From Ulvibacterium marinum (GTDB taxonomy: Bacteria > Bacteroidota > Bacteroidia > Flavobacteriales > Flavobacteriaceae), in assembly GCF_003626755.1 (NCBI RefSeq), contig NZ_RBCJ01000001.1, forward strand, positions 930,001 through 994,000: a stretch of DNA of 64,000 nt, in the 5' to 3' direction. Positions 37,076-39,535 of the stretch are shown here, piece by piece. The position numbers and the translations under genes are program-made. The notes under the pieces are model-generated. The model was not told the DNA's origin. It saw only the letters and a list, made by a program, of their open reading frames with translations, and searched no databases. How positions within the stretch are numbered: the stretch's first letter is position 1; the number at the start of each line of letters is the position of its first letter.

Positions 37076-37828
37076 ATGGATAAAACAGTACTGATAACAG
37101 GTGCCACAAGCGGTATCGGAAAAGCTACGGCAGAACTTTTTGCGGAAAAGGGATTTCGTCTTATACTATGTGGGAGACGCAGAGAGCGTTTGGAGAATCT
37201 AAAGAAAGAATTAAGCCACAAAACGAAAGTGCATATTCTGAGTTTTGATGTTAGGGATAGAAAGGCGGTTTTTGATGCTATAGGTTCATTACCCGAAGAT
37301 TTTGCAAAAATAGATATCCTGATTAATAATGCCGGGAATGCCCATGGTTTGGATACTATTGACCAAGGTAGTATTGACGATTGGGATGCTATGCTGGATA
37401 TTAATGTGAAGGGACTGCTCTATGTGTCCAAAGCGGTAATACCACAAATGGTTGAAAGAAAATCAGGGCATATCATAAACATCGGATCCATAGCCGGAAA
37501 GGAGGTATACCCCAAAGGCAATGTGTATTGTGCCAGTAAATATGCTGTGGATGCACTAAATCAGAGTATGCGAATTGATTTGAATCCACATGGAATACGT
37601 GTAGGTGCGGTAAATCCGGGAGCGGCGGAAACGGAGTTTAGCAATGTACGTTTTAAGGGAGACGATGAAAGGGCCGATAATGTATATAAGGGGTTTGATC
37701 CCCTGACCCCCATGGATATCGCCGAAACAATACTTTTTGTAGTCACCAGACCAGCCCATGTGAATATTTGGGATCTCGTTGTTACCCCAACAGCACAAGC
37801 TTCTGCAACTGTTTGGAATAAAAAATGA
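37076..37828 (+). CDS. SDR family NAD(P)-dependent oxidoreductase
   Basis: A 250-residue short-chain dehydrogenase of the YdfG type (malonic semialdehyde or serine dehydrogenase-like). ITGATSGIGKATAE is the nucleotide loop, LCGRRRERL shows the NADP-preferring Arg, NNAGNAHG is the second motif, and INIGSIAG with YCASKYAV gives the Ser-Tyr-Lys set. Its stop overlaps, by ATGA, the longest possible frame of the next gene. That frame begins inside repeat-like DNA and is probably not the real start. Confidence 0.92.
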   Translation: MDKTVLITGATSGIGKATAELFAEKGFRLILCGRRRERLENLKKELSHKTKVHILSFDVRDRKAVFDAIGSLPEDFAKIDILINNAGNAHGLDTIDQGSIDDWDAMLDINVKGLLYVSKAVIPQMVERKSGHIINIGSIAGKEVYPKGNVYCASKYAVDALNQSMRIDLNPHGIRVGAVNPGAAETEFSNVRFKGDDERADNVYKGFDPLTPMDIAETILFVVTRPAHVNIWDLVVTPTAQASATVWNKK

Positions 37829-37835
37829 TTTCGAG

Positions 37836-37852
37836 TTATGGGTTGCGGGTCA
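37836..37852 (+). repeat. Degenerate left copy of the heptamer repeat
   Basis: TTATGGG-TTGCGGG-TCA at 37836-37852 consists of two variants of the TTACGGG unit. They are inverted relative to the CCCGTAA array at 38272-38383. TTGCGGG is the exact complement of the variant unit CCCGCAA at 38356-38362. The two repeat blocks flank the four-helix-bundle gene. Confidence 0.6.
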
Positions 37853-37866
37853 AAGACGACAATGTC

Positions 37867-38256
37867 ATGGGGAAAGTAGAAACATTTGAAGACCTGGAAA
37901 TTTGGCAATCCGCTAGAAGAATATGTCAGGATGTTTGGTACATTATTGAAAATACTTCTTTGGGTAAGGACTTTAAATTGAGAGATCAAATGAACGGGTC
38001 ATCAGGGTCGATTATGGATAACATTGCCGAGGGTTTTGAACGCAATGGTAATCGTGAGTTTATTCAGTTTCTTAGTATTTCAAAGGCTTCTTGTGGAGAA
38101 CTCCGTTCACAATTATATCGTTGCATGGATAGAAAACATATAAATGAAGAGACCTTTAAAAGACTTCAAGAAGAAACACAGGTCGAAAGTAAAAAAATAG
38201 GAGCTTTTATTGGGTATTTAAAAAAATCGAATAGAAAAGGATCTAAATATGATTAG
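37867..38256 (+). CDS. Four-helix-bundle protein (S23 / IVP-like)
   Basis: I start at ATG 37867 (MGKVETFEDLEIWQSAR), which is where this family begins. The in-frame ATG at 37825 would add 14 residues (ISSYGLRVKDDNV) coded by the repeat remnant. The protein has about 129 residues, all helical, with the family phrases LRDQMNGSSGSIMDNIAEGFER, seen as SGSIMDNIAEGFE, and EFIQFLSISKASCGELRSQL. Relatives are found in 23S rRNA intervening sequences and, as Avd, next to diversity-generating retroelements. No reverse transcriptase is near. It sits between inverted heptamer repeats. Confidence 0.88.
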   Translation: MGKVETFEDLEIWQSARRICQDVWYIIENTSLGKDFKLRDQMNGSSGSIMDNIAEGFERNGNREFIQFLSISKASCGELRSQLYRCMDRKHINEETFKRLQEETQVESKKIGAFIGYLKKSNRKGSKYD

Positions 38257-38271
38257 TTTTTTTGATTTTAT

Positions 38272-38383
38272 CCCGTAACCCGTAACCCGTAACCCGTAAC
38301 CCGTAACCCGTAACCCGTAACCCGTAACCCGTAACCCGTAACCCGTAACCCGTAACCCGCAACCCGTAACCCGTAACCCGTAA
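38272..38383. repeat. Tandem heptamer array, 16 units of CCCGTAA
   Basis: Sixteen head-to-tail 7-base units without spacers fill 38272-38383. All are identical except unit 13 (38356-38362), which is CCCGCAA. A degenerate end, CCCTGACCCGATAAA, follows at 38384-38398 and runs into the next start codon. The minus strand reads (TTACGGG)n, with GGG runs separated by TTAC, a telomere-like pattern that could form G-quadruplexes. In every plus frame the array gives a TAA each 21 bases. In all minus frames it is open, which creates false ORFs. Confidence 0.97.
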
Positions 38384-38398
38384 CCCTGACCCGATAAA

Positions 38399-39535
38399 AT
38401 GATTAACAAACGTCTTCTGGTAAAAAACCTTCTCGCCCATAATGACGAGAACAGTTTTTACGACAAAAAGCGTGTTATCGATATAGGCCAAAGAGAAGGC
38501 AAGGCCAAGTTTCTAAAACATGTCTGCGCCTTGGCCAACAGTAATCCCAAAAACAATTCCTTCATTGTTATTGGGGTAGAGGACGAGGACAACAAAATTG
38601 TTGGGGTCGATTTTTTTGACGATAGCAAGATCCAAAACCTGGTCAATGCGTATTTGGATAATCCACCCCTAATTTCCTATGAAAATATTCCCTTTCCGCA
38701 TTTGCCCGAAGACAAAGTAGTAGGGCTGGTAACGATCAAATCCAACGGCAAGGTGTGCGCACTTCGGCGGAATATTTGGAAATATTATGGGGGAGCGGTT
38801 TTTTTCCGTGAGGGCAGTATAAGCCTTCCCAAAGCCTTCGACATTGAGCTAAAGAACATTAATTCGCAAGCCGTCGCCACAATAGAACAGCACGCCCGCA
38901 ATAATATTGAGCTTACTTTGGACGGGGTTATTGATTTCATCAATTACCGGCATAAAGATTTGGAGAGTGATTATAAGGTTTTTAAGGAACAATTTGTGGT
39001 CTGCTGGGCGGGAAACAAAAAAAAGGTAAATAGTAAAACATACTATTCCAGGGTGGACATTGAATTGATTAATGAACAAGTGAAGTTATTTTACTCCATT
39101 TTCGATGAGGTAACCCTTGCCTATGATGAAAGTTCATTTACCACGATGGAGTATGTACATTTAGGGCTGGGCAAAAAACAGACCTACTATCCATTGGAAA
39201 AAGTGGTCATTACTTTTGAGGACAATGGTACGTACCAAATTCAAAGCGACCTTATTTTTGAACCGCCCCGATACGATAAAAAAACACTTTTCCATATTTA
39301 TAACACAAATAATGTGCTGCTGCAAAAAATGGAACGTAACAGTGTCTTAAAACCATCTGAGGAAATGGATTTGAAACACTTGCCGGACACCTATTTGATC
39401 TGTTATCTCAATGGTTTTGAAGAAGCCAAGGAAAAAATGGAAGCTGCCCGGCCCTTGCTAAAAAAGAAAAATGAAAAAATCTACCGCTCTCTAAAGGAAT
39501 CGTTGCGTATTTTAAGGAAGGTAAAATATAGCTGA
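38399..39535 (+). CDS. AlbA_2 (Schlafen-type) domain protein
   Basis: A 378-residue protein. The N-terminal 130 residues fit an AlbA_2/Schlafen domain: REGKAKFLKHVCALANSN, FIVIGVEDEDNKIVGVDFFDD, VGLVTIKSNGKV and the typical FFREGSISLPK. The rest is a mixed region with no clear HTH and a basic C-terminal helix. Such proteins are often annotated as ATP-binding regulators, but the real function is unknown. The ATG lies 15 bases after the heptamer array, and no purine-rich ribosome site is visible there. Confidence 0.8.
   Translation: MINKRLLVKNLLAHNDENSFYDKKRVIDIGQREGKAKFLKHVCALANSNPKNNSFIVIGVEDEDNKIVGVDFFDDSKIQNLVNAYLDNPPLISYENIPFPHLPEDKVVGLVTIKSNGKVCALRRNIWKYYGGAVFFREGSISLPKAFDIELKNINSQAVATIEQHARNNIELTLDGVIDFINYRHKDLESDYKVFKEQFVVCWAGNKKKVNSKTYYSRVDIELINEQVKLFYSIFDEVTLAYDESSFTTMEYVHLGLGKKQTYYPLEKVVITFEDNGTYQIQSDLIFEPPRYDKKTLFHIYNTNNVLLQKMERNSVLKPSEEMDLKHLPDTYLICYLNGFEEAKEKMEAARPLLKKKNEKIYRSLKESLRILRKVKYS

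Follow-up and report, generated by a model that had tools for sequence, protein, structure and literature searches.

The closest described counterpart of the element reported here is the intervening sequence (IVS) of the 23S rRNA in Coxiella and other bacteria. As far as the available text of the source goes, the IVS and our cassette both consist of one S23/IVP open reading frame between terminal inverted repeats, and both are inserted in a transcribed unit (PMC4990558). Hypotheses of transposition and of a mobile element are already on record there for the IVS, and one of the solved relatives of the IVP is reported as a homopentamer (PMC4990558). The S23/IVP family is widespread, and the parts of the literature that we found do not give its function. 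In the sections accessible to us, a 23S rRNA IVP is named in a figure legend on CRISPR associations (PMC10910872), one is listed in UCYN-A (PMC11637426), and a four helix bundle gene lies between the guanylate kinase and nicotinate-nucleotide adenylyltransferase genes of two Flavobacterium columnare strains, where the authors filed it as a phage element (PMC5524665). This last locus looks like one more operon junction of the cassette kind.

Intergenic heptamer arrays have been described separately, without a protein partner. The TAACTGA repeats (MacGregor 2015, PMC4679880) are 7-base intergenic direct repeats, also found in Bacteroidetes, that often stand just before a start codon; according to the text available, their horizontal spread is suspected, as is an unknown mobile repeat-binding protein, with the S1, Csp and Csr families as candidates and none identified. 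The words '23S', 'S23' and 'intervening' are absent from the text of that paper. The GGGAATC heptamers of Xanthomonas and Nostoc (Rehm 2015, PMC4692102) also form intergenic arrays, which include convergent pairs (70 in one Xanthomonas genome, 75 in another) and were interpreted as G-quadruplex elements; the text available contains neither '23S' nor 'four helix' and reports no gene between the pairs. In the partial texts that we searched, among them few subscription journals or preprints, no report linking IVP genes with heptad arrays was found.

Here we analyse a stretch of 64,000 nucleotides from Ulvibacterium marinum (the window, C6:930001-994000). It carries an IVP cassette with terminal complementary repeats of the IVS type. 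While the IVS sits in the 23S rRNA, this cassette lies between an SDR and an AlbA_2 gene, at a protein-coding operon junction, and its arms are unlike those of the IVS in being 7-base tandem arrays that are locus-specific, matched within the element and without a sign of selection for RNA pairing. In contrast to the TAACTGA repeats, the arms here form inverted pairs, built from many different heptamers, and we propose the IVP as their partner. Provisionally, we regard the cassette as a small mobile element of a kind not found described.

Structure of the cassette

The initial annotation of the window described a small gene that exactly fills the interval from an SDR stop to an AlbA_2 start and is enclosed by inverted heptamer repeats. 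Both statements were borne out by the sequence, and the features run as follows.

37076 to 37828, plus strand: upstream neighbour, SDR family oxidoreductase gene (PF00106, E 1e-57), whose TGA abuts the element
37835 to 37852, plus strand: left arm GTTATGGGTTGCGGGTCA, C-poor, made of the degenerate heptads GTTATGG and GTTGCGG followed by GTCA, defined from the sequence and its inverted match to the right arm
37864 to 38256, plus strand: IVP (S23-type four-helix bundle) gene, 130 aa (PF05635, TIGR02436, AlphaFold2)
38272 to 38386, plus strand: right arm, 16.4 copies of CCCGTAA, with a variant unit CCCGCAA at 38356-38362
38387 to 38393, plus strand: outer end of the right arm, TGACCCG
38399 to 39535, plus strand: downstream neighbour, Schlafen AlbA_2 and DUF5929 gene (PF19351, E 3e-108; PF04326, E 3e-12)

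The insert measures 570 bases between the SDR stop (37828) and the AlbA_2/DUF5929 start (38399). A longer reading frame from 37825 overlaps the SDR stop, and the ATG at 37864 is the likely start of the 130-aa IVP, the only sense ORF of at least 60 aa in this spacer. The absence of a reverse transcriptase, already remarked on in the annotation, also holds; the one RVT_1 match of the window genome is at C6:1215838, outside the window. In another genome (G058), contigs C14, C34 and C54 hold five equal-scoring reverse transcriptase matches, probably a recently multiplied element.

The CCCGTAA array, with 98% matches, scores 223, and no other tandem repeat in the window exceeds 46. When up to 2 mismatches are allowed, TTACGGGTTACGGG occurs 17 times in the window, 16 of them at the IVP locus (shuffling expects 0.39). 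Its counterpart TTATGGGTTGCGGG (37836-37849), the sole plus-strand copy at the locus, belongs to the left arm and pairs with the one variant unit of the right array. The two arms match in inverted orientation at p<=0.01 against mismatched arms, and they close a 16-bp stem around the gene in the minimum-energy and centroid RNA folds alike. The motif CGGGTCA had been put forward as common to both sides. It is indeed present at 37846-37852 (plus strand) and at 38387-38393 (minus strand), gene-proximal in the left arm and gene-distal in the right one; as a shared terminal motif it was rejected, since its count in the window (7 versus 4.9 expected, with 21 of 100 shuffles as high) is not above chance.

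The window IVP matches PF05635 with E 8e-31 and 106.8 bits (curated cut-off 33.8) and TIGR02436 with E 9e-29 and 99.9 bits (cut-off 24). Its AlphaFold2 model is a four-helix bundle (pLDDT 92.9) whose nearest folds are 2gsc and 2rld, followed by Avd 4dwl; TM values by query length are 0.76-0.81 for 2gsc (1.5-2.1 A) and up to 0.73 for 4dwl. The deposited 2gsc and 2rld have five chains each. Avd (4dwl, 8ub7) shares the four-helix bundle fold, although identity to the Avd chains among the matches listed is 12-14% and the window has no reverse transcriptase. The protein is under purifying selection, with dN/dS of 0.06-0.41 in 11 pairs (a 12th was saturated). In a phylum-wide sample of 118 genomes, PF05635 was found in 90 (87 above the curated cut-off), with up to 16 copies; the window genome has 12. 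Phage carriage of the window's IVP subfamily was also considered and rejected, none of the 151 pattern matches in viral contigs being confirmed as a relative.

Presence and absence in relatives

The annotation had suggested that the unit was dropped into an operon and that an empty site might be found in close relatives. Such sites exist in both congeners, where the SDR gene is joined directly to AlbA_2 by spacers of 41 and 43 bases with neither IVP nor heptad array, and in most of the relatives examined, which supports an insertion. The congener AlbA_2 genes are 96% and 94% identical to that of the window, and the gene is present in 93 of 100 family genomes, almost always in single copy. Among the 95 AlbA_2-bearing genomes (these 93 and the 2 congeners) we examined 52 sites, from the window genome, the 2 congeners and 29 plus 20 family genomes. 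An SDR gene lies upstream at 48 of them, and six of these 48 contain an IVP between the two genes (the window genome, G011, G064, G023, G084 and G075), two of which, G023 and G084, were picked because an IVP beside AlbA_2 was already known there. At the other 42, tblastn with two IVP queries gave no IVP, and in 14 of the 42 the SDR stop and the AlbA_2 start overlap by 4 bases (ATGA). Two spacers (L169 and L193) hold ATTATT arm-like sequence without a detected IVP, possibly the remnant of a lost cassette, and a 616-base spacer in G063 (L158) has another reading frame and no detected IVP.

On the SDR tree the window genome is sister to the empty congener G002 (SH-aLRT 88), with the empty congener G001 outside, so that the window cassette represents one gain or two losses. 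The six filled genomes do not cluster (6 changes on a poorly resolved tree, 5 of 45 branches being starred). The SDR and AlbA_2 flanks are native to the genus, so that what the window genome gained appears to be only the cassette. No target-site duplication was recognised, nor is the spacer of the empty site recognisable in the filled window site. By eye, the heptads at this same junction are of different types in different genomes, such as TTACGGG, GTTGCAG and ATTATTTATTG, each matched left and right.

Inverted arms at other loci

By eye, most IVP copies of the window genome lie between mutually inverted repeats whose sequence is particular to each copy. We extended this to 135 Bacteroidota loci, comprising 12 from the window genome, 14 from the two congeners, 29 family loci (one per genome, with the best scores) and 80 more from family genomes, taken from places among the matches listed; low-scoring IVPs are under-represented in this set because the loci were chosen from the best-scoring matches listed. 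The fragments of one broken IVP (L025 and L027) were excluded from all final sets. Both neighbours are on the IVP strand at 131 of the 135 loci, 3 others having an opposite left neighbour and 1 no right neighbour, while in a control with simple ORF calls, IVPs included, the same holds for 93 of 159 small ORFs of the window genome (p 1e-16). Median spacers are about 54 bases on the left and about 44 on the right.

In the arm test, the left flank was scored against the reverse complement of the right flank, and true pairs were compared with permuted pairs. True pairs reached 3432 versus 2228 +- 42 for permuted pairs, with a maximum of 2427 in 10,000 permutations, which count loci as independent though many share a site (24 at one). 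Individually, 70 of the 135 loci have an inverted match at p 0.05 and 29 at 0.01. This stricter test superseded an earlier scoring in which gap costs were looser and the ranks weak, 4 of 28 rows coming first of 55. The match is absent in flanks 400-550 bases away (mean 15.5 versus 15.3), and there is little in direct orientation at the 135 loci (17.9 versus 16.3). Around 71 ordinary small genes of the window genome with two spacers each, no inverted arms were found (z -0.2). Left arms are C-poor (about 0.11) and right arms G-poor (about 0.12), with 0.17 and 0.23 in the far flanks.

Two further sets gave the same picture. In the first, 80 named loci that were the best 80 of one scan, both neighbours are on the IVP strand in 73, and the other 7 miss a neighbour, at least partly at contig ends; the 78 with enough flank scored 2466 versus 1565 +- 51, with 27 of 78 at p 0.05 and a lag-7 autocorrelation of 11 times. 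The second comprised 30 phylum-wide loci, mostly of other families or classes (L292, L295, L310 and L317 belong to the window's family), and scored 801 versus 490 +- 22, with 13 of 30 at p 0.05 and lags 7 and 8 both raised; here both neighbours are on the strand in 22, at least one is opposite in 7, and no neighbour was called in 1. The suggestion that heptamer arrays flank IVP genes more often than chance is thus largely upheld, inverted heptad arms being far beyond chance in all three sets.

The arms of the 135 loci have a clear period, their autocorrelation at lags 7 and 14 being about 10 times that of a letter shuffle in both arms, and at lag 21 being 5 and 11 times in the two arms. At lags 8 and 16 it is 3-4 times, indicating that the period is sometimes of 8 bases. 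No lag-7 excess is seen in coding flanks (about 1 time), and the spacers of ordinary small genes in the window genome have a mild one (2.9). When 16 of 21 matches are required, 88 heptad arrays lie at 63 of the 135 junctions, compared with 30 arrays in 338 kb of flanks; the looser threshold of 15 of 21 gives an array at 91 loci and leaves 44 without a clear one. A phase model was built on 192 heptad segments, which come from 136 of the 242 loci. It returned (A/G)GTT as the anchor when the heptads are read toward the gene; the frequencies of its G, T and T are.79,.75 and.62. Its total information was 2.27 versus 1.40-1.58 in ten within-array column-permuted controls, for which fewer restarts and rounds were used, and the loci at shared sites are non-independent.

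Arm type also follows the element and its protein. For 92 loci that share 23 sites, the two arms of one element match better (2201) than arms paired across the elements of a site (1856 +- 53), cross pairs outscoring own pairs at 5 of the 23. At different sites (242 loci, with the broken IVP L023 excluded here and from the IVP tree), arm similarity rises from about 13 at protein identity below 40% to 26 above 70%, with a Mantel r of 0.26 (largest of 500 permutations, 0.064). For example, in two Flavobacterium species, the IVPs of L271 and L289 are 84% identical, share one arm type and sit at different operon junctions. The IVP tree clusters strongly by site (27 changes versus 67 shuffled, minimum 21), and therefore most elements persist vertically and movement is infrequent. 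The tree also has jumps, with L006, L009 and L024 forming a clade (99/89), the same lineage at other junctions. The window IVP groups (99/89) with the IVP at the tpiA site of the window genome and the one at the folD site of G002, both sites being named from their translated neighbours, and the clade of these three is nested inside the SDR|AlbA_2 clade.

Solitary arrays

Heptad arrays also occur away from IVP genes. A pattern of AAC-spaced heptads matched in 27 of 40 genomes, and among the arrays taken, one per genome, 1 of 27 has an IVP within up to 1.5 kb on each side (three stretches were cut by contig ends). The TAACTGA pattern matched at 17 or more places in 10 of 198 genomes, and 1 of 12 arrays examined has an IVP over the same distance. 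Two strict heptad arrays in 400 kb of the window genome are both without an IVP. Several AAC-pattern arrays directly adjoin either the stop codon of the preceding gene or the start codon of the following one.

The initial annotation had counted arrays found as often without the gene as with it against the cassette. Single arrays are in fact common (37 of the 39 from the repeat-side search have no IVP nearby), which partly speaks against it, whereas the inverted pair is tied to the IVP gene. The idea that gene-less arrays are two-armed remnants was rejected, an inverted partner being present in 1 of 33 at p 0.05 (592 versus 566 +- 26) after 4 of the 37 without a lag-7 array at threshold were dropped. 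Across one genome per genus, AAC-pattern arrays were present in 60 of the 77 genomes that bear an IVP and in 4 of the 23 that lack one (p 2e-7), and the rank correlation between arrays and IVPs is 0.62, or 0.61 allowing for genome size. Given these counts and the arrays without an IVP, the arrays are partly independent of cassettes and yet, as a correlation, depend on or travel with IVP-bearing genomes.

Individual arrays offer some further observations. In the window genome, about 13 copies of TTTAGGG, the letters of the plant telomere repeat, immediately precede a gene that by eye is HupE-like (C6:425476-425571; L171 5476-5571), with no IVP and, by eye, no inverted partner. TTTGGAA heptads at C6:693837-693872 (L184) lie between two genes that, also by eye, resemble transketolase halves, without an IVP. 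At L126, arrays of TTAGATG and CTCTTAT stand side by side about ten bases apart, 854-950 bases after the IVP start. In two congeners, different solo arrays, TAAACCA at L005 and TTAACAC at L026, occupy the same junction about 640 bases upstream of the IVP, as if solo arrays were also rewritten. TAACTGA arrays of G227 (contigs C23 and C27) begin at most 10 bases from contig ends, and therefore such arrays probably break assemblies and are under-counted.

Discussion

The explanation that we favour, and consider rather probable, is that of a mobile cassette encoding a ring protein that recognises the cassette's heptad arms. The minimal cassette consists of the left arm, the IVP gene and the right arm, the arms being inverted arrays of 7-base, sometimes 8-base, units. 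It would insert in the sense direction at a gene junction of an operon, replacing the spacer and leaving the neighbours intact, and therefore the IVP could be transcribed with the host operon. The IVP ring may bind the heptads through the conserved anchor (A/G)GTT, read toward the gene, and one ring might span several units and so hold both ends together. The arms would diverge by repeat slippage and be re-matched by arm-to-arm copying at the DNA level, and movement might be accomplished by host recombination or replication enzymes. Host enzymes are favoured for the chemistry because the IVP is the sole sense ORF and reverse transcriptases do not track IVPs.

A possible, though doubtful, alternative is an intervening sequence acting at the RNA level, where the two arms base-pair once the operon is transcribed, the stem is cleaved by RNase III, the IVP segment is released and RNA pairing is what selection maintains. 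The Coxiella IVS, in which an S23p ORF between terminal inverted repeats is excised by RNase III, offers a precedent in the available text (PMC4990558), and the sense orientation at 131 of 135 loci and the 16-bp stem of the window arms are in line with it. Also, the duplex energy of own arms averages -22.1 kcal/mol versus -12.4 for mismatched arms, with 52 of 135 loci at p 0.05. However, there is no excess of G-U over A-C between arms (92 versus 124; control 1792 versus 2135; p 0.40), and the fold of the window element is no more stable than shuffles (z 0.68). The absent G-U excess favours matching at the DNA level over selection for RNA pairing.

It seems unlikely that the IVP is instead a domesticated operon regulator which binds heptads in mRNA or DNA and tunes the downstream gene or itself, the solo arrays being further targets. 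TRAP, a ring protein that binds spaced triplets, is an analogy for such an IVP. The fixed spacing of 7 or 8 bases with a short anchor would suit this role, as would the low dN/dS, the arrays that abut start or stop codons and the concentration of AAC-pattern arrays in IVP-bearing genomes. Nevertheless, neighbour genes vary widely among loci and the SDR|AlbA_2 site is mostly empty in relatives, and therefore no stable regulon is seen; such a regulator also leaves the inverted pairing unexplained.

That ordinary slippage-prone intergenic repeats lie near IVP genes by chance is highly improbable: heptad arrays without an IVP do exist, small-gene spacers have their own mild lag-7 excess and heptamer repeats are known in other bacteria from the texts available (PMC4679880, PMC4692102), but arrays are far denser at IVP junctions, inverted pairs surround IVP genes and are not beyond chance around gene-less arrays or small genes, and arms track protein lineage, so that the inverted-pair and Mantel tests contradict it. 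We give equally little credit to a retroelement or MITE that a reverse transcriptase or transposase of the host would mobilise in trans, an idea that the likeness of the IVP fold to Avd 4dwl of diversity-generating retroelements might suggest, but RVT_1 is present in 29 of 100 genomes without regard to the IVP (24 of 77 IVP-bearing versus 5 of 23 IVP-less, p 0.44), a genome with 16 IVPs has none, and by eye the 12 copies of the window genome have no common terminal sequence.

Beyond the mobile cassette itself, we tentatively suggest a broader reading, in which the IVP would be the missing partner of the Bacteroidota heptamer arrays, and perhaps also of the TAACTGA and GGGAATC repeats; IVPs would maintain and possibly write arrays, and the rRNA intervening sequence would be a special case. 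A short anchor might be re-aligned every 7 bases while the other bases stay free, by which every locus would acquire a unit of its own and the two inverted ends of every element would match. The IVP cassette would be the self-encoding member of a genome-wide array system.

The union of the IVP family with the heptamer arrays makes both testable. The ends of transposons are recognised by a fixed enzyme, unlike cassette ends that are variable by locus and matched. If the mobile cassette is true, it is a very small gene-bearing mobile element whose ends vary by locus yet stay matched, and it offers an origin for the rRNA intervening sequences.
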